A DNA stretch of 64,000 nt, taken from NCBI GenBank assembly GCA_029863175.1, contig JAOTVX010000012.1:1-64000 (forward strand), written 5' to 3'. Below the pieces are notes generated by a model. That model was not told where the DNA came from. It searched no databases and saw only the letters and a list, made by a program, of their open reading frames with translations. The position numbers were made by a program, and so were the translations under genes. Source of the stretch: Betaproteobacteria bacterium (GTDB lineage: Bacteria; Pseudomonadota; Gammaproteobacteria; Burkholderiales; SG8-41). This document shows, piece after piece, positions 12,691 to 23,679 of the stretch; the first letter of the stretch is position 1; each line of letters begins with the position of its first letter.

Positions 12691-14610
12691 TCACGGATTT
12701 TTCCCCGCCATCTCCAGCAGCAGCTGATTCATCCGCTTGACGAAACCGGCGGGATCCTCGAGCGTGCCGCCCTCGGCGAGCAGCGCCTGGTCGTAGAGGA
12801 CTTGCGACAAATCCTTGAACCGCGCCTCGTCGCTCTCGACCTTCAACCGGTCCAGCAGGCGGTGGTGCGGATTGATTTCGAGAATCGGCTTCGACGCCGG
12901 CGTCTTTTGTCCCGCGGTCTTGAGCAGGCGTTGCAGGTTGGCTGACAGATCGTGCTCGTCGGCGACGAGACACGCCGGCGAGTCGGTGAGCCGCAAGGTC
13001 ACGCGCACGTCCTTGACGCTCTCGCCCAGGGCCGTCTTCATCTTCTCGATAAGCTCCTTGAACTCGCCCGCCTCCTTTTCCTGCTCCTTCTTCTCGGCCT
13101 CGTCCTCGAGCTGGCCGAGCTCGAGCCGGCCCCGCGCGACCGACTGCAGTGCCTTGCCCTCGAACTCGGTCAAATTCGACGCGACCCATTCGTCGACGCG
13201 GTCGTACAGCAACAGCACCTCGACGCCTTTCTTGCGGAACACTTCGAGATGCGGGCTGTTACGGGCCGCAGCGAAGCTGTCGGCGGTAACGTAGTAGATC
13301 TTCCCCTGCTCCGGCTTCATGCGCGCCACGTAATCCGCGAGCGATTCGTCCTGTTCCTCCGCGTCCTTGTGCGTAGACGCGAAGCGCAAGAGCTTCGCAA
13401 TGCGCTCGCGGCTCGAAAAGTCCTCTCCGACGCCCTCCTTGAACACCCTCCCGAATTCCTTCCAGAACGTCGCGTATTTTTCCTTGTCCTTCTCAGCGAG
13501 ATCCTCGAGCATCGAGAGCACGCGCCGCACCGACCCGGCGCGGATCATCTCCACGTCCTTCGATTCCTGCAGGATCTCGCGCGAGACGTTGAGCGGAAGG
13601 TCGGCCGAATCGACGACCCCGCGCACGAAGCGGAGGTACGCCGGCATTAGGTGCTCGGCGTCGTCCATGATGAACACGCGCCGGACGTAGAGCTTGATGC
13701 CGCGCCGATGGTCGCGGTCCCAGAGGTCGAAGGGCGCGCGCGAGGGAATGTAGAGGAGCTGCGTGTACTCTTTCGTGCCCTCGACCCGGTTATGAGAGTA
13801 GGCGAGCGGTGTCTCGAAGTCGTGCGCGACGTGCTTGTAGAATTCGTGGTACTGCTCTTCGGTGATCTCCGACTTCGGCCGTGCCCACAACGCGCTCGCC
13901 TGGTTGACGGTCTCGTCCTCGCCCGTGGTGCGGTAGACCCGGTTGTCCTTGTCCCACTCCTCCTTCTTCATCACGATCGGCAGAGTGATGTGATCGGAAT
14001 ACTTTCTGATGATGGAGCGCAGCCGCTCTCCGTTCGCGAGCTCGTCCTCGCCCTCGCGTAAATGTAGCGTCACCTCGGTGCCGCGCCCGGCGCGCTCGAC
14101 CGTTTCGATGGTGTATTCGCCGCTGCCGTCAGATTCCCACCGCACCCCGTGCTCCCGGGTGAGCCCTGCGCGGCGTGTCGTCAGCGTCACCCGGTCGGCG
14201 GCGATGAACGAGGAATAGAAGCCCACGCCGAACTGTCCGATCAGGTGCGCGTCTTTGGCCTGATCGCCTGTCAGGCTCTGGAAAAAGTCGCGCGTGCCGG
14301 ATTTGGCGATGGTGCCGATCTGCTCGATCACCTCCTGGCGCGACATGCCGATGCCATTGTCCGACACGGTCACGGTGCGCGCCTTCGGGTCGAGGCTAAC
14401 GCGGATCCCGAGCTCGGGATCGTCCTCGTAGAGCGCCTTGTCGGTGAGCGCCTCAAAGCGCAGCTTGTCGCACGCGTCCGACGCGTTCGAAATCAGCTCG
14501 CGCAGGAAGATCTCCTTGTTGCTGTACAAGGAGTGCACCATCAAGTCGAGCAGCTGCTTGACTTCGGCTTGGAAGCCAAGTGTCTCGCGGGTCTGGGTTT
14601 CAGACATCAT
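12691..14610 (-). CDS. htpG: Hsp90 chaperone HtpG
   Basis: A 639-residue cytosolic ATP-dependent chaperone of normal length. The GHKL ATPase domain has [20 protein letters not shown] (catalytic Glu and Asn), DNGIGM (DxGxG box), and [11 protein letters not shown]. The middle domain includes [25 protein letters not shown] and [13 protein letters not shown]; the C-terminal dimerisation domain ends [13 protein letters not shown]. The start ATG is preceded by GGAGG. It is bordered on both sides by repeat blocks and appears to be a single-gene unit. Confidence 0.98.
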
Positions 14611-14895: not shown

Positions 14896-16269
14896 TCAAC
14901 CCCGCCCAGGTGAGGCGGCTATCCGCCTGGCCCAAATCAGCACCGGAACGCCCGAGAACACCATAGCGATTCCGATGATGGCGCCGATGCTGCCCGGATC
15001 GAGGCTCATTGCGTAAGTGAAGCTCGAGTAGAGCATGTAAGCGCACGCCGCAACAAACAGCAGCGGGGTCACGGGGTAAAAAGGCACCCGGAACGGGTCG
15101 CTGTTGACTGGCGCGTGGCGCCGCAGGAGAAAGAGCGAGACTGCGGTCAGCATGAAGAACAGCCAGAATGCCGGCGCAGTGTACGCCACCATGGTCTGAA
15201 ACCCGTCCGGCGTAAAGGAAGCGAGCAGTATCAGCGTGAGCGCGATTGCACCCTGCACCAGTAACGCATTTACCGGGGCGGCCGCCTGCTCGCTCCAGCG
15301 CCCGAGCGCGCTGAAGATGGCGAAATCCCGTCCCAGCGCGTAGTTCGTGCGCGCGCCCGTAAAGACTGTCGCGTTGAGCGTCGAGAGCGCAGCCGACACG
15401 ACGACGATGGAGAGTAGCCATGCGCCGCCATCGCCCCACGTCGCCCGCATCAGGTCCGCTGCGACCGCCTTCGAGGACTGCATCCCGCCCAGCCCGAGCA
15501 CGTTCAGGTAGGCGAGATTGAGCAGCAGGTAGAGCAGCGTGATCACAAAAATGCCGATCAGCAAAGCGCGGACGATGTTGCGCTTCGTGTCGCGCATTTC
15601 CGCGGTCAGATAAGCCGCCTCGTTCCAGCCGCCGTAAGTCAGCAGCACGAAGATCAGCGCGAGCCCGGAAAACCACGCTCCACCCTTTGACGGGTCGGGC
15701 GCCGGCGCTGGCGGAGCCGGCGCTGCCGCGAGACCGCCGACCACCACCGCCAGCACGGTCAGCGCCAGCGCCGTGGTGAGCATGTTCTGAACCCATTTGC
15801 TCTGCGTGGTGCCCGCAACGTTGAGCGCCGTGACGCCAAGCACCGCGAGGCCGGCGTAGAGCGCGGAGCTATGCTTGCCGAGCGGCAGGAGTGTCGTGGC
15901 GTAATCGGCAAAGACAAATGCGATCGCAGCAATCGCGCCGGTCTGGATCACCGTCATCCGCGCCCAGGCGAAAAGAAAACCAAGCCAATCGCCGTAGGCC
16001 CGCGACAGGAAATAGTATTCACCGCCGGCGTTGGGATGCGAGCTGCCCAGCTCGGCGTAGCAGAGCGCCCCGATCAGCGAGATTGCGCCGCCAATCAGCC
16101 AGAGCGCGATGAAGGCGAACGGGGTCGCGACATTGCCCGCGACAATGGAAGGCGCCTTGAAGATCCCGACGCCCACGACGATCCCGACGATCATCGCCAC
16201 CGCGTCGAATACGGTAAGCGTCGGGCGTGGCGTGGCGCCGCTCCCCGCGGGGTCGTGGTCGATCCTCAT
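14896..16269 (-). CDS. APC superfamily amino acid permease
   Basis: A 457-residue, about 12-helix transporter of the amino acid-polyamine-organocation superfamily. Helix 1 has the unwound substrate motif VGIVVGVGIFKAPSIV, helix 3 region CYAELGSSHPNAGGEYYFL, and helix 6 GGWNEAAYLTAEMRDTKRNI. The ATG at 16,269 overlaps the stop of the upstream methyltransferase gene (ATGA), so it is the last gene of the five-methyltransferase operon. The substrate is unknown; context suggests something used or made by those exported enzymes, but that is inference. Confidence 0.9.
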   Translation of the reverse strand: MRIDHDPAGSGATPRPTLTVFDAVAMIVGIVVGVGIFKAPSIVAGNVATPFAFIALWLIGGAISLIGALCYAELGSSHPNAGGEYYFLSRAYGDWLGFLFAWARMTVIQTGAIAAIAFVFADYATTLLPLGKHSSALYAGLAVLGVTALNVAGTTQSKWVQNMLTTALALTVLAVVVGGLAAAPAPPAPAPDPSKGGAWFSGLALIFVLLTYGGWNEAAYLTAEMRDTKRNIVRALLIGIFVITLLYLLLNLAYLNVLGLGGMQSSKAVAADLMRATWGDGGAWLLSIVVVSAALSTLNATVFTGARTNYALGRDFAIFSALGRWSEQAAAPVNALLVQGAIALTLILLASFTPDGFQTMVAYTAPAFWLFFMLTAVSLFLLRRHAPVNSDPFRVPFYPVTPLLFVAACAYMLYSSFTYAMSLDPGSIGAIIGIAMVFSGVPVLIWARRIAASPGRG

Positions 16270-17195
16270 TGCGTCATGCGCTGGAACCGGCGCGCCGGAT
16301 GGCTGCCGCCGTAGCTGACCTCCCTGGCCTCGATCAGCCTGGCGACCCACGGCCGGGTGCGCTGCGCCTTGCCTTGGCCGAAGGTGACGGTGCCCTCGAT
16401 CGTATCGTTCTTCACCTTCCCGCTGAAGCGATGGGCGAGCATCCGCCCCTCGACGATAAGCTGCGAGTTGAACTCGAACTGGTCGCCCACGAGCCTAAAC
16501 TCGGGGATCTTGCCCTCCCGCTTGCCGACCCGCACCATGCCTTCGACGAACTGAAAGTCCTGATCGAAGAAGAAATCGTACGGCACCACTTTGCGGCCGT
16601 GCTCGATCTGCGAGAGCCATCGGCCCGCCATCTTGGCAGGCACGGTATAGAGGAAAATGTAGCTCTTGTCTTCGTCGCCGACCTCTTTCCCCGGCACGGG
16701 CATGATCTTCTGGGCGTCGGGGAACCATTCAGCCATGTCATAATCATGCGTCACCACGCGCGTGCCCGGCTTGAGCCCCAGAATCTTCGGCCGCAGCTTG
16801 AGGTTTAGCTCCGGCAGAAGGTAGGCCGTGATCACCGTGGCGGGCGTAAGATCGGTCTGGAACAGATCCTGTTCGAGGAAGTGCGCGCGGTCGGCCACGC
16901 CCGCCAGGCGCGCGTTCTCGTTCGCCCTCTTGAGCAGGACACGGTCGAGGTCCACGCCGAAGCCGCGTGCTCCGTGTTTCGTCGCCGCCGTGATGACGAT
17001 GCGCCCGTCGCCCGAGCCGAGGTCGATGATGTAATCGCTTGGGCCAACTTTTGCCATGTTCAGCATCTCGTCGACGACCTCCTGCGGCGTCGGCACGTAG
17101 ATCACGTCGCCTTCGCCTTCCTGGGCACCGACGCCTGGCGCTGCCAGCAGCAGCGACACCGCCAACATTCGTTTCAATCGTGCAGTGAGATTCAT
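16266..17195 (-). CDS. Exported class I SAM-dependent methyltransferase, paralogue 1
   Basis: A 309-residue protein with a signal peptide (MNLTARLKRMLAVSLLLAAP, cleavage likely after GVGA). The mature part opens with VIYVPTPQEVVDEMLNMAKV, then motif I DLGSGDGRIVITAATKHGA, acidic FGVDLDRV, and later TRVVTHDYDMAEWFPDA. This core resembles the FAM173/ATPSCKMT-like methyltransferases. The last 120 residues are a separate beta-rich part with FLYTVPAKMAGRW and FSGKVKNDTIEGTVTFGQG. It is coupled to the permease gene by an ATGA overlap. Substrate unknown; how SAM would be available outside the cytoplasm is unexplained. Confidence 0.85.
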   Translation of the reverse strand: MNLTARLKRMLAVSLLLAAPGVGAQEGEGDVIYVPTPQEVVDEMLNMAKVGPSDYIIDLGSGDGRIVITAATKHGARGFGVDLDRVLLKRANENARLAGVADRAHFLEQDLFQTDLTPATVITAYLLPELNLKLRPKILGLKPGTRVVTHDYDMAEWFPDAQKIMPVPGKEVGDEDKSYIFLYTVPAKMAGRWLSQIEHGRKVVPYDFFFDQDFQFVEGMVRVGKREGKIPEFRLVGDQFEFNSQLIVEGRMLAHRFSGKVKNDTIEGTVTFGQGKAQRTRPWVARLIEAREVSYGGSHPARRFQRMTQ

Positions 17196-17214
17196 GTCAA
17201 GTCCTCGACTCAAA

Positions 17215-17316
17215 TGTGAATAATGAACGGTGAACGGAAGAAACAACACACATCGCACCCTATTTCCTAATTCCTATTTCCTATTTACTTGGTGATCTGC
17301 GTTCATCGGCGGCTGT
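17215..17316. repeat. Short-unit repeats between methyltransferase genes 1 and 2
   Basis: This gap holds GTGAATAATGAACGGTGAACG, then CCTATTTCCTAATTCCTATTTCC units (17,260-17,287), and TCTGCGTTCATCGGCGGCT (17,296-17,314), which runs into the last codons of paralogue 2. Thus the C-terminal SRR of that protein is repeat-derived or overlaps it. Confidence 0.7.
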
Positions 17317-18247
17317 CGCCCGGGAACACTTGAGATCGCTTCCAGTCAGCCGGCGCTGGCGTGATATCGATCGCCGCGCGCTGAATCCGGCTCGCGCGCC
17401 AGTCGAGTTCCACGCCCCCGGCCAATTTCACCTTTCCAGTAATGGCGTCTCCGTTCACCCGCCCCTGAAACTCATAACGCACGCCGCGCCCCCCGGCTTC
17501 CGTCGTCAGCGAAAAACGCAACGCGTCTCCGCGCACTCTGCCGCCCTCGAGCCGGGCCATTGCCCCGCCCGCTCGTGCCGTGCCGGACAACATCTGGAAC
17601 CTTTGCTTGAGCTGGGCCTCGTATGTGACGAGCCCTTCCCCGGTGCCAACGCTCCAGCGCCACGTGCCTGCTGCATTCGCCGGTATGACCCACAGATAGA
17701 CCTTGCTCTCAGGCGCGCCGTAGGGCTTGTCGGGGACCGGGACCGTAAGCTGCGCATCCGGTAACCACAGATCCATGCCGAAATCGTGCGAAACCACGCG
17801 CGTGCCGGGCTTGAGCTCCGCGAATAGTCGCGAGCGCAACTGTAAATTGATTGAAGGGTAAAGATACATGGTGAGCACTGTGGCCCGGGAGATGTCGGTG
17901 AGGAAGAGGTTCCGTGCGAAGAACTGGACACGTTCCCCAACACCCGCTCGCTCCGCCGCCTCCCGGGCGCGGGCGACCAGGTACTCGTCCACGTCCACGC
18001 CGAAACCGCGCGCGCCATGCCGCTTGGCTGCGGCAATGACGATACGCCCATCCCCGGATCCGAGGTCCACCACGTAATCCTGCGACTCGACCTTGGCGAT
18101 AGCGAGCATGGCCTCCACGACATTGGGAGCCGTCGGCACGTAGGGCACGTCGGGATCGGGTGCTGCAAACGTGCCGGTGGTTACCGCAACAAGAGAACAT
18201 ACCGCGACCGCCAACGCGGCGCGTACCCGCTGACCGTAATGATTCAC
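17303..18247 (-). CDS. Exported class I SAM-dependent methyltransferase, paralogue 2
   Basis: A 314-residue paralogue. The GTG at 18,247 overlaps the upstream stop as GTGA and is preferred over an ATG 24 bases upstream. The signal peptide (RAALAVAVCSLVAVTTGTFA) leads into VPYVPTAPNVVEAMLAIAKV, motif I DLGSGDGRIVIAAAKRHGA, GVDVDEYLV, and RVVSHDFGMDLWLPDA. The C-terminal part repeats the array signature VYLWVIPANAAGTWRW and FQGRVNGDAITGKVKLAGG. There is a 107-bp repeat-bearing gap before paralogue 1. Confidence 0.84.
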   Translation of the reverse strand: MNHYGQRVRAALAVAVCSLVAVTTGTFAAPDPDVPYVPTAPNVVEAMLAIAKVESQDYVVDLGSGDGRIVIAAAKRHGARGFGVDVDEYLVARAREAAERAGVGERVQFFARNLFLTDISRATVLTMYLYPSINLQLRSRLFAELKPGTRVVSHDFGMDLWLPDAQLTVPVPDKPYGAPESKVYLWVIPANAAGTWRWSVGTGEGLVTYEAQLKQRFQMLSGTARAGGAMARLEGGRVRGDALRFSLTTEAGGRGVRYEFQGRVNGDAITGKVKLAGGVELDWRASRIQRAAIDITPAPADWKRSQVFPGDSRR

Positions 18248-19107
18248 TGTCCCACCCGAAGTGCGCGCCATTGTGCAATGGCTCGTGCCTTTCCGACGCC
18301 GCGCGTTACCTGCCCCTCGATCGCATCGCCCGCTACGCGCCCCTCGAAATAGAGGCTCGCCTCGTTGTCGCGGTCGGAGGTATCGACGAGGATGAAGCTC
18401 AGCCGCGCGCCGGTCAGCCGCGCCTCCCAGACTGGCGCGTGCACGCCGTTCAGCCGCGCGCTGCCGGAAACCACCTGATAGCGTTGCGTGAACTCAATCT
18501 CGATCAGGCGCTCGATCGGCGGCAGCGCCAGCCGCATCTGCCAGCGGCCCGCAACCCGCGCTGGGACGATCCACAAGAATACCTTCTTCCGGATCGTGCT
18601 CGTGCGGTCGGGCCGCCAGTCCTCGAGATCGTAATCGTGCGAGACGATGCGCGTACCTGGATTCAACGTCAGGAGCCGCAGCCGCAGCCTGCGGTTTACT
18701 TCCGGGAACAGGTACATCGTAATGACGGTCGCTGGCGAAAGGTCTGTCTTGAAAAGGTCCTGCTCGACGAATTTCACCCGGGCCTCGACGCCCGCCTGCC
18801 GCGCGCGCTCCTCGCTCTGGATGAGCATGTGTTGATCCAGCTCCACACCGATCCCACGCGCTCCGAATTTTTTTGCGGCGGTGATCACCACGCGCCCGTC
18901 GCCGGAGCCCAGATCCATCACGAAATCGTCGGGGCTGACATTCGCGAGCCTCAACATCTCGTCCACGACGACCATTGGCGTGGGAACGAACGGCACGTCG
19001 AAGCTGGGTTGCGCGAGCGCCGGCCCCGCTGAAGCTCCCGCCGCCAAGAGAACAGCTACGGCAAAAACGCCTGTCCTTCGACACACGATTGACACAGCAT
19101 TGAACAT
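18244..19107 (-). CDS. Exported class I SAM-dependent methyltransferase, paralogue 3
   Basis: A 287-residue paralogue. The signal peptide (VFAVAVLLAAGASAGPALA, cleavage before QPSF) is followed by VPFVPTPMVVVDEMLRLANV, motif I DLGSGDGRVVITAAKKFGA, GVELDQHML, and RIVSHDYDLEDWRPD. The C-terminal part has VFLWIVPARVAGRWQ and FEGRVAGDAIEGQVTRGVG. The TGA stop overlaps the GTG of paralogue 2. There is no clear ribosome binding site before its ATG, and the preceding gap is filled by a CTTGAACCTG repeat. Confidence 0.84.
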   Translation of the reverse strand: MFNAVSIVCRRTGVFAVAVLLAAGASAGPALAQPSFDVPFVPTPMVVVDEMLRLANVSPDDFVMDLGSGDGRVVITAAKKFGARGIGVELDQHMLIQSEERARQAGVEARVKFVEQDLFKTDLSPATVITMYLFPEVNRRLRLRLLTLNPGTRIVSHDYDLEDWRPDRTSTIRKKVFLWIVPARVAGRWQMRLALPPIERLIEIEFTQRYQVVSGSARLNGVHAPVWEARLTGARLSFILVDTSDRDNEASLYFEGRVAGDAIEGQVTRGVGKARAIAQWRALRVGQ

Positions 19108-19110
19108 TTA

Positions 19111-19157
19111 AATTTAAACCTTGAACCTGCAACCTTGAACCTGGAACGTTGAGCGTC
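19111..19157. repeat. CCTTGAACCTGCAA tandem repeat
   Basis: Three near-copies of (A)CCTTGAACCTG(CA/GA) fill the 58-bp gap between methyltransferase genes 3 and 4. It is another short-unit intergenic repeat type. Confidence 0.65.
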
Positions 19158-19165
19158 GAAGACGC

Positions 19166-20125
19166 TCACCGGGCCCCGCACGGCACCCCCATCTCCCGGC
19201 ACGGCGGCACGTTCCGCAGAGCAAAGTGCTTGGGGTCCCACAACTCGATGCGCGCCGCGTTCCACGAAAGCGCCTGCCGCTGCTCACCGCGGATGATGCG
19301 TCCCTGACCTTCAATCACGTGGCTGACGATGCGCCCCGAGAACTCGTAACGCGTCCGCGAAGAGCCGGCCTCGCTCGCGCCCACGAGCGCTATCCGGTCT
19401 CCCTCCAGCGTGACGCTTTCCAGAGACGCCCGACGCGCCCCGATCGTGAGCGTGCCGGCGAGCTTTTGGAACGTCTGATCGAGCGTTAGTTCGAACACCG
19501 CTGGCTTGCCGTCCCGCGTCACTGTCCAGTACCAGCGTCCCGCGGCATTTCCCGGCACCACCCAATAGAAAATCTTGCTCCTCTTGCTCGAGCCCACCGT
19601 CTTCCCGGGCGCCTCCAGCTCCGTCTGGTCGTCCGGCGCCCACACGCCCATGTGGTAGTCGTGCGAGACGATGCGCGTACCCGCTCGCAGCGTGGCAAGC
19701 AGCTTGGGGCGGATCATGAGGTTCACCTCCGGAAGGAGGTAAAGCGTGACTATGGTGGCGGGGCTGACGTCGGTCTCGTGCAGGTCGCGCTGGTAGAACA
19801 CGGCGCGATCCGCCACACCAGCCTTGGCGGCATTGGCATTACCGAGTTCGACAAGGCGCTGGTCGAGGTCCACGCCGAAGCCGCGCGCGCCATATTTCTT
19901 CGCGGCGGTGATGACCAACCGTCCGTCGCCGGAGCCCAGATCGATCAGGTAGTCGTCGGCGCGCACCTTGGCAAGGCCCAGCATCGTGTCCACGATGTTC
20001 CGGGGCGTCTGGACGTAGGGCACGTCACCGTAGTCCTGGGCAAACGCCGCAGCCGCCACTCCGGCGACCAGCAGCATGCCGCCGAGGTGCGCCAAGGTTG
20101 GTCCAACGGGAGCGTGAAAAATCAT
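19166..20125 (-). CDS. Exported class I SAM-dependent methyltransferase, paralogue 4
   Basis: A 319-residue paralogue with signal peptide GGMLLVAGVAAAAFA (cleavage before QDYG), then VPYVQTPRNIVDTMLGLAKV, motif I DLGSGDGRLVITAAKKYGA, GVDLDQRLV, RIVSHDYHMGVWAPDD. The C-terminal part has IFYWVVPGNAAGRWYW and FSGRIVSHVIEGQGRI, and a Cys-containing tail (PPCREMGVPCG). Its ATG shares one base with the stop of paralogue 5 (TGATG), so translation is coupled. Confidence 0.85.
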   Translation of the reverse strand: MIFHAPVGPTLAHLGGMLLVAGVAAAAFAQDYGDVPYVQTPRNIVDTMLGLAKVRADDYLIDLGSGDGRLVITAAKKYGARGFGVDLDQRLVELGNANAAKAGVADRAVFYQRDLHETDVSPATIVTLYLLPEVNLMIRPKLLATLRAGTRIVSHDYHMGVWAPDDQTELEAPGKTVGSSKRSKIFYWVVPGNAAGRWYWTVTRDGKPAVFELTLDQTFQKLAGTLTIGARRASLESVTLEGDRIALVGASEAGSSRTRYEFSGRIVSHVIEGQGRIIRGEQRQALSWNAARIELWDPKHFALRNVPPCREMGVPCGAR

Positions 20126-21087
20126 CAGTGGGGCAAGACTGGAGGATGAGGCAGGAACTGGCGGCGCCTTGTTTCATCTGTCGCCACCGCGGTCCGGGTT
20201 ACGCGTCGTGCAGTCCAGTCGCCCTGCGACTGCAGGCGTTCGCCAGAGAGCATCGCGGTACCGAAGACATCGTCGCCATCAACCTTGCCGGTCAAGGCAT
20301 GTTTCACGCGCGCGCCGTTGATATCGATCGTGAACTCTACGCGCAGCTCATCGCCCCGCACCCGTGCTTGGTCGAGCTTGACCAAGCGGCCGCCGATGCG
20401 GGCAGTGCCCGATAGGACCTGGTAGCGCTGCTGCAGGACAATCTCGTAGGAATGCGCTCTGCCTCCTACTGCGGACTCCCACGTCCAGCGGCCGGCGACC
20501 CGGGCCGGAACGATCCAGAGATAGACATCGCTCCGGCCGCCCGCGCGTCCGAACTTGTTCAGCGCCTCCACGACGACGTGCTGGTCCGGCTGCCAGGCGT
20601 CCATGGAAAAGTCGTGCGAGACGATGCGCGTGCCGGGCTTGAGCGCAAGCAGCCGCGGACGCAGCTCGAGGTTGACGTGCGGCGCCAGGTACATGGTGAT
20701 CACGGTGGCTTCGGCGAGGCTGGTATCGAACAGATCGCGCTGGTAGAACGCGACGCGGTCAGCAACGCTCGTGCGCCGGGCGTTTTCGTTGCTCTCCTCA
20801 ATAAGTTCCGGATCGATGTCCACCCCGAAACCACGCGTGCCGAAGTTTTTTGCAGCCGTGATCACGATGCGGCCATCGCCCGAGCCGAGGTCGATCAGAT
20901 AGTCGTTGGAGCCGACCCTGCCGATCTCGAGAATGCGGTCGACAACGGCCTGCGGGGTCGGCACATAAGGAACCCGGGGTTCCGCCGCTGCAACCGGCAT
21001 GGCCGCGGCGGCAGCCAGAAGCGCGCCGCACAACCTGTCGCGGATTGGCGACGAAACCAGCTGACGAGAAGGGGTCTGCACTAGCAT
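20125..21087 (-). CDS. Exported class I SAM-dependent methyltransferase, paralogue 5 (first in operon)
   Basis: A 320-residue paralogue with signal peptide CGALLAAAAAMPVAAA (cleavage before EPRV), VPYVPTPQAVVDRILEIGRV, motif I DLGSGDGRIVITAAKNFGT, GVDIDPELI and RIVSHDFSMDAWQPD. The C-terminal part has VYLWIVPARVAGRWTW and LTGKVDGDDVFGTAML. AGAGGAG precedes the ATG by only two bases, so the GTG two codons on (21,081) may be the true start. It heads the methyltransferase operon and diverges from a spermidine-synthase-like gene across about 98 bp. Confidence 0.85.
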   Translation of the reverse strand: MLVQTPSRQLVSSPIRDRLCGALLAAAAAMPVAAAEPRVPYVPTPQAVVDRILEIGRVGSNDYLIDLGSGDGRIVITAAKNFGTRGFGVDIDPELIEESNENARRTSVADRVAFYQRDLFDTSLAEATVITMYLAPHVNLELRPRLLALKPGTRIVSHDFSMDAWQPDQHVVVEALNKFGRAGGRSDVYLWIVPARVAGRWTWESAVGGRAHSYEIVLQQRYQVLSGTARIGGRLVKLDQARVRGDELRVEFTIDINGARVKHALTGKVDGDDVFGTAMLSGERLQSQGDWTARRVTRTAVATDETRRRQFLPHPPVLPH

Positions 21088-21185: not shown

Positions 21186-22796
21186 ATGCTGCTCTACGCC
21201 ATCATTTTCCTCTCGGGCGGCGCGGTGCTGGCGCTCGAGCTTCTGGCCTCGCGCATCATGACCCCCTATTTCGGGGTCAGTCTCTACATCTGGACCGGGA
21301 TCCTGTCGATCACGCTGGTCGCCCTGGCGTTCGGCTACCGGTTGGGCGGGAAGCTTGCACGCGGCCGCGGCAACGCGATTGCGGGCGCCGCCCGCCTCGC
21401 GCAGCTCTATATGGTTCTGCCCGCGGTCGCCGCGTTCGGGATCGTTCTGGCCTGCCTCGTATATCCCTATCTCTTTCCTGTGCTCGCGCGCGCCGATCTG
21501 GTGCTCGGATCGTTCGCCGCGTGCCTCCTGCTGCTGTTCGTGCCGCTGGTCGCGGCTTCGGCCATGAATCCGTTGCTGGTCGCGCTCCTGCTCGCGCGCG
21601 GAGGGGGCCCGACCGGTGATGCCGGGGCGGGCACCGTCTTTTTTGTGAGCACGGTCGGCTCGGTCGCCGGGGTGTTCGTCACCGCTTTCGGCCTGATCCC
21701 GACGGTCAGCAACTTTTCGGCCACACTTGCCGTTGCGCTCGTGCTGGCACTGGTTTCGCTGGCAGCCGCGGCGCGGCCGCCCGCCCCGCTCCTGGCGCGC
21801 CGCAAGCTCGGCATCGCGGCCGCCTGCGCGACGCTGTGCGCTGCGCTGCTGTTGTGGCAGGCCGACGCCTATATTGGGCGCATGTGGCCGGCGAGCTACG
21901 CCGGGCAGCTCTGGCGGATCGAAGCCCGCTTCAGCTCGCTCTTCGGAACGGTAAAGATTTTGCGCAACGAGACCGACCCCGAAACGGGCCGCTTCGCGCG
22001 CATGTATTTTCAGGACGGCTTGATACAGAACACCGTACGCTCGGACGGGCGTTCGCTGTCGTTCTACACCTATGCGCTCGAGGCCCTGGCCTATGCCCAC
22101 CGGCCGCGCATCGGATCGGCGCTCGTACTCGGGCTGGGGGCCGGCGTGGTGCCGCGCCGGCTCGCCGCGCAGGGCGTCTCCGTCGAAGTGGTTGAAATTG
22201 ACCCGGCGTCGCTCGCGGCTGCGCAGCAGTTTTTCGACTTCGATGCCCGGCGCGTGCGCGTCCATCTGGAGGATGCTCGTACGTACCTGCGCCGCTGCAG
22301 CCAGCGCTACGATGTCGTGGTGGTGGATTTGTTCTACGGCGACGGCACCCCCGAATACCTGGTCACGCGTGATTTCTTCAGCGATCTGCGCCGCTGCCTC
22401 GCAGCGGACGGCGTGGCGCTCTTCAACACGTTCGCCGACCTCGACCTGCCGAACGCCTATGCGCACTTGCTTATCACGCTGCGCTCGGAGCTGCCATACG
22501 TCAGGCTCTATCGTCCGGACTGGCCGGGCGCAGCGCACGTGAACAGCTTCGTCGTGGCGGGACTGCGCCCGCTGCCCGACCCGCGTCCCGTAACGCTCGA
22601 CTACGTGCCGCCGCGGCACAGCGCGGCGCTCACCGCGATGCTCGCGCGCCCGCAGGCCCTTCACCACGATCTCCTCGATGAAGGCGAGATCGTGACCGAT
22701 GCCAACAACCACGGGGTGCACGACATGGCCGAAAGCCAGCTCGTCTACCGGCAGGGGGTGGTGCGGGCGCTGCCGGCCGCCTTTCTCGTCAACTGA
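21186..22796 (+). CDS. Membrane-anchored spermidine synthase-like protein
   Basis: A 536-residue fusion. About residues 1-230 form seven or so transmembrane helices starting AIIFLSGGAVLALELLASRI, the usual anchor of the MFS-like/SpeE fusion family. About residues 250-480 are a spermidine synthase-type Rossmann domain: MYFQDGLIQNTV, VLGLGAGVVPRRLAAQG, VEVVEIDPASLAAAQ, HLEDARTYLRR, VVVDLFYGDGTPEYL. This fold transfers aminopropyl or methyl groups from (decarboxylated) SAM; the actual substrate is unknown. The ATG at 21,186 was chosen because the upstream extension is not family-like. It is divergent from the methyltransferase operon, which is also SAM-related. Confidence 0.86.
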   Translation: MLLYAIIFLSGGAVLALELLASRIMTPYFGVSLYIWTGILSITLVALAFGYRLGGKLARGRGNAIAGAARLAQLYMVLPAVAAFGIVLACLVYPYLFPVLARADLVLGSFAACLLLLFVPLVAASAMNPLLVALLLARGGGPTGDAGAGTVFFVSTVGSVAGVFVTAFGLIPTVSNFSATLAVALVLALVSLAAAARPPAPLLARRKLGIAAACATLCAALLLWQADAYIGRMWPASYAGQLWRIEARFSSLFGTVKILRNETDPETGRFARMYFQDGLIQNTVRSDGRSLSFYTYALEALAYAHRPRIGSALVLGLGAGVVPRRLAAQGVSVEVVEIDPASLAAAQQFFDFDARRVRVHLEDARTYLRRCSQRYDVVVVDLFYGDGTPEYLVTRDFFSDLRRCLAADGVALFNTFADLDLPNAYAHLLITLRSELPYVRLYRPDWPGAAHVNSFVVAGLRPLPDPRPVTLDYVPPRHSAALTAMLARPQALHHDLLDEGEIVTDANNHGVHDMAESQLVYRQGVVRALPAAFLVN

Positions 22797-22848: not shown

Positions 22849-23679
22849 TCACAACGCGAGCGTTTCACCCGGCTCGATTAGAAAGACTTTGGTCGGCGCG
22901 TTGCCGAGCGCCTGCAGGTAGTCCTTGGGCGTGCCGGCGAGCACCGGCAGCGTTCCGTAGTGGATCGGAATGGCGTACTTGGGCTTGAGCCATTCGCGTG
23001 TCGCATAAGCCGCATCCTTGGGGTCCATCCCGAAGTGCCCGCCGATCGGAATCATGACGAGGTCCGGCTTGTAGTAGTCCCCGATCAGCTTCATGTCTCC
23101 GAACAGCCCCGTGTCTCCCATGTGGTAAATCTTGAAGCCGTTCTCGAGCTCGATGATGAAGCCAACCGGCTCCCCGCCAGGATGCGTTTCCTTCTTTTTC
23201 GTCGCGGGGTTGGCCCACAGCAGCTCCGAGCTGTGCTCGGCCCGTACCTGCGTAATTTTCACGCCAGGGAACGGCGTGATGGTGCCGCCCTTGTTCATGC
23301 GAGGCGCGAGCGCGGCCGGCAGCACGCCCAGCGTCCGCAGCGTCTGGTTCAGCCCGGCCGGCCCCCACACCGGCGCCTTGTGCCGGCGCGCGAGCGCCGG
23401 CGCGTCACCCAGGTGATCGTCATGCCCGTGGGTCACCAGGATCAGGTCCACGTTGCCCAATGCGCCGCGCTTCCGGTATTCGGGCGGGGTCTTAGGGTTC
23501 GTGGCAAGCCAGGGATCAATCAGAATTACCTTGCCCGACACCGTGGTAACGCGCACCGCGGAATGTCCCAGCCAGAGCACCTCGATCTTGCCTTTCTCCT
23601 GCGCCATCGCAACGGACATCGGGAAAAGCGCCAGCAGGGCGGTGACCCAGCTGATCGCGATAAGGCGCATCGCTTGCAT
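22849..23679 (-). CDS. Exported metallo-beta-lactamase-fold hydrolase (UPF0173-like)
   Basis: A 276-residue protein with a signal peptide ending SVAMAQ. The metal-binding motif is THGHDDHLGD, with later Asp and His ligands in YHMGDTGLFGDMKLI and IPIHYGTLPVL; EVLWLGHSAVRV is typical of the UPF0173/YtkL-type metal-dependent hydrolases. The location is periplasmic by inference. The substrate is unknown. AGAGGA precedes the ATG. It is convergent with the spermidine-synthase-like gene. Confidence 0.9.
   Translation of the reverse strand: MQAMRLIAISWVTALLALFPMSVAMAQEKGKIEVLWLGHSAVRVTTVSGKVILIDPWLATNPKTPPEYRKRGALGNVDLILVTHGHDDHLGDAPALARRHKAPVWGPAGLNQTLRTLGVLPAALAPRMNKGGTITPFPGVKITQVRAEHSSELLWANPATKKKETHPGGEPVGFIIELENGFKIYHMGDTGLFGDMKLIGDYYKPDLVMIPIGGHFGMDPKDAAYATREWLKPKYAIPIHYGTLPVLAGTPKDYLQALGNAPTKVFLIEPGETLAL

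Follow-up and report, generated by a model that had tools for sequence, protein, structure and literature searches.

Exported aKMT-type methyltransferases and a LAT-type exchanger as a candidate system for methylation in the bacterial envelope

Introduction

Bacterial chemistry that depends on S-adenosylmethionine (SAM) is generally taken to be cytosolic. How could methyltransferases that carry export signals then come by their cofactor? The question is raised by five neighbouring genes, and by the gene of an amino acid exchanger that adjoins them, in a stretch of 64,000 nucleotides, here called the window, from a Betaproteobacteria bacterium (contig JAOTVX010000012.1 of assembly GCA_029863175.1, positions 1 to 64,000 of the forward strand). 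An earlier note on this DNA had described five tandem methyltransferases, all with their own signal peptide, and had concluded that either SAM is exported, the proteins act before or during export, or the fold is reused to bind another ligand. This interpretation is partly supported by the analysis presented here. That the enzymes combine an intact SAM pocket with export signals is well supported. Whether they methylate envelope proteins and are fed by a dedicated exchanger, which would carry SAM out and S-adenosylhomocysteine (SAH) in, appears evenly poised; we infer both the transported substrate and the targets of methylation.

Intact methyltransferases behind export signals

All five genes (Table 1) have NF041081, prot_lys_mtase_Arch, as their best NCBIfam model (99.5–118.7 bits, under the cut-off of 200), and the other four are 40–47% identical to array position 1, which has at least 7,997 relatives among the 7,999 candidates scored from the protein collection. 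Tandem paralogy is thereby confirmed for five consecutive minus-strand open reading frames (ORFs; here and below from rough ORF calling with no gene finder, some loci being fetched and counted twice). Common to all five are the motif DLGSGDGR, an HD(Y/F) box, the opener V(P/I)(Y/F)V(P/Q)T and a C-terminal W/G pattern. In Pfam they match general methyltransferase models and DOT1 (PF08123; 29–35 bits against a gathering threshold of 23), the latter taken as a sign of distant kinship only, as better general methyltransferase matches overlap it in part of the five. Among solved structures, those nearest in sequence to position 1 are 5bxy, 5fa8 and 5jwj. Of these, 5fa8 and 5jwj belong, like 5fad, to aKMT/aKMT4 of Sulfolobus islandicus, the NF041081 enzyme, with which the window proteins share the catalytic domain (44% identity), the opener and the SAM motif. 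They are nevertheless not a known duplicated family of cytosolic proteins, since aKMT is a single domain of about 160 residues that has neither the signal nor the C-terminal barrel found here.

Is the SAM pocket still functional? An alignment of 96 full-length members shows no variation at D66, G68, G70 and G72; residue 90 is D or E and residue 118 is D or N throughout. Motif I and the acidic residue of strand 2, retained in all five window genes, are intact in 282 of the 284 family ORFs that span the motif, out of 290 ORFs above 100 bits (276 distinct aligned sequences); the two exceptions are one ORF each of loci L130 and L188. Y133 is kept in 258/290 and H158 in 252/290. In the predicted model of position 1 a beta domain stands apart from a Rossmann domain, and the latter matches 5bxy with a template modelling score (TM-score, by target length) of 0.94 (50% identity) and the SAM and SAH complexes of aKMT, 5fa8 and 5fad, with 0.91–0.92. 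5bxy, from Salinibacter ruber, is titled as a SAH complex and lacks the C-terminal barrel. Its chain stretch was found letter for letter in an ORF (L124:1444-2784) that has a signal peptide and an adjoining exchanger, so that the mature part of a putatively exported, exchanger-linked family member is already crystallised with SAH. Reuse of the fold for another ligand, as the earlier note had considered, is therefore disfavoured, and with it degenerate or ligand-switched enzymes. The signal peptide on its gene product also changes how 5bxy itself is to be read. Its name in the PDB, RNA methyltransferase, implies an RNA substrate, for which we saw no evidence, and is doubtful in view of the signal peptide and the neighbouring exchanger.

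The second half of the argument concerns export. Signals were called by a home-made rule (charge of the n-region, h-region, cleavage site). Four of the five window genes pass it; position 2 fails, apparently only because its n-region lacks K/R, though an h-region ending in AFAQ is present, and we count all five as bearing export signals. The rule is passed by 236 of 260 family ORFs above 100 bits, as compared to 517 of 4980 shuffled N-termini (10.4%), and 10 of the 24 failures are cut by a contig end. Some cyanobacterial members carry lipoboxes such as VGLAGC (7 by pattern, 10 by eye) and some betaproteobacterial ones Tat-type signals, for example SRRSFIAGAAAAG. The pattern counts among 282 ORFs (14 lipobox, 43 Tat-like) include false positives, most of all for the Tat pattern, which caught even the window's first gene, where no plausible Tat signal is present. 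The occurrence of Sec, lipoprotein and Tat-type signals on one enzyme core is a stronger argument for export than these counts.

The C-terminal barrel of the five has W201, Q220 and G245 invariant in the 96 full-length relatives. Searched by structure, it gave no match at E 0.001 or better; the weak matches are calycin-like (FABP, bradavidin, Cap15, nitrobindin; best E 0.024). It may help to recognise partner proteins.

Some relatives depart from this layout. P0032, of 528 residues, has a single signal-like N-terminus followed by three aKMT-type domains in tandem, and P0012 and P0059 hold two, a duplication inside the protein that parallels the gene array and may reflect assembly joins. Distant homologues at L131–L135 and L137 (55–80 bits) have a hydrophobic N-terminal stretch and then GGALFV-like openers, which we take to recall FAM173; no exchanger was found within 1.5 kb of them.

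A LAT-type exchanger as companion gene

Where could SAM outside the cytosol come from? The permease, mentioned in the earlier note only as overlapping the array, proved to be the most informative neighbour. By sequence and fold family it is a LAT-type APC exchanger (AA_permease_2, 164 bits; 6f2g and LAT1 at E of about 1e-49 to 1e-48). This family handles alpha-amino acids, and both SAM and SAH are alpha-amino acids. An APC gene adjoins the methyltransferase well outside the Betaproteobacteria and in both gene orders. It does so in 15 of the 20 named arrays, and L004 adds one where the ORF is not lost to masked bases. In evenly drawn genomes, with flanks of 1.5 kb, an exchanger above 300 bits lies next to 23 of the 38 methyltransferase ORFs that exceed 150 bits: 11/13 in the phylum of genome G011, 5/10 in that of G010, 1/6 in that of G012, 4/6 in the class of G008 (one twice-hit ORF counted once) and 2/3 in the class of G009; of the weaker methyltransferase hits from these genomes, 0/10 have such a neighbour.

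For co-occurrence, the exchanger clade was defined by a profile of 17 linked exchangers, which separates it in the phyla of G011 and G010 (matches of at least 625 bits, the next at most 333); in the class of G008 a stricter limit was set, and the matches listed lie at 565–667 bits. Three samples with together 388 genomes (98, 148 and 142, the centre genome of each having been chosen as enzyme-bearing) contain the clade in 10/98 (phylum of G011), 5/148 (phylum of G010) and 3/142 genomes (class of G008). All 18 belong to the genomes that have a methyltransferase (13, 6 and 4 in number), and none to the other 365. The Fisher p values of 2e-11, 1e-8 and 9e-6 are uncorrected for kinship and thus descriptive, not proof. 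Recurrent adjacency together with co-occurrence in three samples led us to reject the exchanger as a chance neighbour. In the betaproteobacterial family of the nearest genome the methyltransferase is present in 59 of 60 genomes, with 1–18 copies each, and the exchanger in 52 (51 with one copy, 1 with two), one genome having neither gene; one exchanger thus accompanies up to 18 methyltransferases. Moreover, the linked exchangers have a near-invariant acid in the motif GGWNEAAY where LAT1 aligns with Y, and different residues occupy this site in two relatives of lower score. Fusions of methyltransferase and exchanger were not found among the ORFs of L001–L138 and the window.

Several observations weigh against a dedicated pairing. 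Among the 44 named loci that have a lone methyltransferase, many of them on short contigs, the exchanger was seen at just 10, and in the phylum of G013 a clade-like exchanger (above 400 bits) lies within 1.5 kb in only 3 of 30 loci, a count made from the locus flanks and not from whole genomes. Methyltransferases occur without a clade exchanger in 3/13 (phylum of G011; best profile matches in these three at most 145 bits), 1/6 (phylum of G010) and 1/4 genomes (class of G008) as well as in 7 of the 60 betaproteobacterial-family genomes, for which completeness is not given. The adjacency could also have been inherited as one block. Finally, LAT-type exchangers carry many amino acids.

A periplasmic SAM pool?

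An intact SAM enzyme beyond the cytosol needs its cofactor there. Across phyla, no gene other than the exchanger was found to be conserved next to these enzymes, and SAM-for-SAH exchange is the economical reading. Such exchange exists, as the mitochondrial carrier SLC25A26 is a SAM/SAH exchanger (PMC9239748). According to this proposal the exchanger would carry SAM out and SAH back, and each paralogue would have envelope proteins of its own whose lysines or other amines it methylates. A single exchanger beside multiplying enzymes argues for one supplier with many users. Of the possibilities raised by the earlier note, export of SAM is thus favoured by the Sec, lipoprotein and Tat-type relatives and the conserved exchanger, though it is still deduced. 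The wider claim, to which we give a little less than an even chance, is that several phyla keep a periplasmic SAM pool by means of a LAT-type exchanger and use exported aKMT-type enzymes to methylate envelope proteins, with up to 18 such enzymes per genome in one betaproteobacterial family, where a seven-transmembrane (7-TM) enzyme would join them. If true, bacteria would have an extra compartment for methylation and could methylate surface proteins once these have been exported, and the pair of exported enzyme and exchanger would be a simple two-gene test for periplasmic SAM. A literature search at the level of titles and the beginnings of abstracts, with subscription papers mostly outside its scope, returned no exported aKMT-like enzymes and no bacterial SAM exporter.

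What else could the exchanger be doing? It might carry another, perhaps cationic, amino acid or amine, which the enzymes methylate or whose metabolism they serve, SAM arriving otherwise. The broad substrate range of LAT-type exchangers speaks for this reading, and so does the acid in GGWNEAAY, which would be compatible with any cationic solute. We nevertheless consider it unlikely, though worth keeping in mind, because SAM would still be required outside, because up to 18 divergent enzymes per exchanger fit many protein targets better than one small molecule, and because the nearest characterised relative, aKMT, methylates proteins (PMC4639711). Alternatively, the exchanger or similar membrane proteins could be the substrate, in the manner of human FAM173A, which methylates the ADP/ATP carrier. 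The pairing is tight, and the aKMT relatives FAM173A and FAM173B act on ANT and ATP synthase subunit c (PMC9006661; PMC10238732). The mismatch in copy number between one exchanger and up to 18 methyltransferases, and the existence of exported enzymes with no adjacent exchanger, make this improbable.

Two further readings do away with a SAM transporter or with catalysis. Tat substrates fold in the cytosol, and the Tat-type signals of some members would be consistent with enzymes that act before or during export or take bound SAM along. Since most members look Sec-type and some are lipoproteins, and since bound SAM allows one turnover only, the chances of this are very small. An equally slim chance is given to catalytically dead proteins with structural or ligand-binding roles in the envelope. 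The literature search results describe no activity for the exported clade, in keeping with such a loss; set against this are the conservation of motif I, the strand-2 acid, Y133 and H158, and the superposition of the model on the aKMT complexes with SAM and SAH.

Relation to known systems

aKMT is described as having a cytosolic role, with chromatin proteins and MCM as its targets (PMC4639711). The human enzymes FAM173A and FAM173B (ANT-KMT and ATPSc-KMT), with reported homology to the archaeal lysine methyltransferase, membrane targets and an N-terminal hydrophobic segment (PMC10238732; PMC9006661), resemble the exported family by description only; they are mitochondrial, with their targets on the matrix side and SAM from the SAM carrier. 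Lysine methylation of envelope proteins is likewise known from bacteria, for Rickettsia PKMT1/2 and Acinetobacter KmtA (PMC11784438), which differ in being another type of methyltransferase, with a dimerisation domain; export of these enzymes is not reported in the available parts of that paper.

The fungal NHMT has seven transmembrane segments and a spermidine-synthase-like domain that lacks the D/E of GxG(D/E)G, a layout like that of the 7-TM protein beside the array. It methylates secreted proteins and co-localises with the endoplasmic reticulum, and the same paper discusses SAM supply by Golgi transporters in plants (PMC10349129). The comparison is one of layout; NHMT is fungal, and its 7-TM sequence is called unique to filamentous fungi (PMC10349129).

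Age and layout of the array

When did the five copies arise? Across 15 loci, window included, 86 array members were placed in one tree, where most positions form a supported clade of their own: position 1 (13 rows, 100/99), position 2 (15 rows, 100/99), position 4 (14 rows, 100/97) and position 5 (15 rows, 100/99). Position 3 is recovered within two nested groupings, of 11 rows (96/95) and 14 rows (99/91). The window and the 14 other loci share one order of positions. Recent tandem duplication is rejected on these grounds, every position having a clade to itself; the paralogues are ancient and their order has long been maintained. The earlier suggestion that five divergent copies have distinct partners fits these clades. 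Arrays of at least four copies were found in 20 of 79 named loci. Titles of loci such as Bordetella parapertussis (L006, L035, L041, L076) or Klebsiella pneumoniae (L032) come from metagenome assemblies, seem doubtful and carry no weight here. They vary in that L001 lacks position 3, L029 has position 4 doubled, and L010, L015, L006, L022 and L035 contain an extra sixth clade. A further methyltransferase, mostly of its own clade, lies beyond the 7-TM gene in L004, L005, L006, L008, L010, L011, L015, L029 and L034; the window lacks it.

The overlaps noted before are borne out, with 1 nt between positions 1 and 2 and 28 nt between positions 3 and 4. Position 5 and the permease, which lies downstream, share 4 nt (ATGA) provided that translation of the permease begins with the ATG at 16269, not with the GTG at 16350. 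Position 5 itself probably starts at 17195 (MNLTARLKRMLAVSLLLAAPGVGAQ), the choice of starts being our judgement.

Table 1. Features of the window discussed in the text (array position 1 is gene 5 of the earlier note).
Feature	Coordinates	Strand	Basis
Exported aKMT-type methyltransferase, position 1	20125..21087	-	NF041081 match, signal, model (pLDDT 91.6), matches to 5bxy and aKMT complexes
Calycin-like C-terminal beta-barrel domain of the position 1 protein	20125..20526	-	separate model (pLDDT 90.4)
Exported methyltransferase, position 2 (opener VPYVQTP; signal n-region without K/R)	19166..20125	-	own clade
Exported methyltransferase, position 3	18244..19107	-	NF041081 match, signal, tree
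Exported methyltransferase, position 4	17303..18271	-	NF041081 match, signal, tree
Exported methyltransferase, position 5	16266..17195 (longest ORF to 17258)	-	likely start 17195; NF041081 match, signal, tree
LAT-type APC exchanger, 4-nt overlap with position 5	14896..16269 (longest ORF starts 16350)	-	Pfam AA_permease_2; BasC-like 6f2g and LAT1
Divergent 7-TM protein with spermidine-synthase-like domain, motif GLGAGV	21186..22796	+	NF037959 (164.2 bits); topology, motif

Other neighbours

The 7-TM protein, whose gene lies upstream of the array and points away from it, belongs to the fused MFS/spermidine synthase family NF037959, whose cut-off of 40 bits it far exceeds. It does not qualify as a spermidine synthase (aminopropyltransferase), an enzyme that requires the D/E in GxG(D/E)G (PMC10349129), as all 23 homologues printed have GxGAG. 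Among 26 homologues that score over 300 bits, a second frame at L001 is devoid of transmembrane segments; by a simple threshold the remaining 25 have seven hydrophobic segments in 20 cases and six in 5, where segment 7 (4 cases) or segment 6 (1 case) stays below the threshold. Since K/R cluster in loops 3, 5 and 7, the C-terminal catalytic domain is predicted to lie outside, in the periplasm, and the protein may be one more methyltransferase supplied with the same SAM. The gene was met only with betaproteobacterial arrays, in 11 of the 20 named ones.

When 720 rough gene calls from the surroundings of 48 loci were clustered, the methyltransferase (in 33 loci) and the exchanger (in 27) came out as the largest groups. 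The third (18 loci) was set aside as ORFs antisense to methyltransferase genes, judging from one printed example, and the fourth (7 loci) looks like ABC transporters, judging from one sequence start. The 7-TM gene and HtpG each appear in 5 betaproteobacterial loci, window included. HtpG (12691-14610, minus strand) follows the exchanger in the window, as in many betaproteobacterial arrays. A metal-dependent hydrolase of the NF001911 family (22849-23679, minus strand; 229 bits) has a signal-like start (MRLIAISWVTALLALFPMSVAMAQ) and may be exported, in a family usually taken to be cytosolic.

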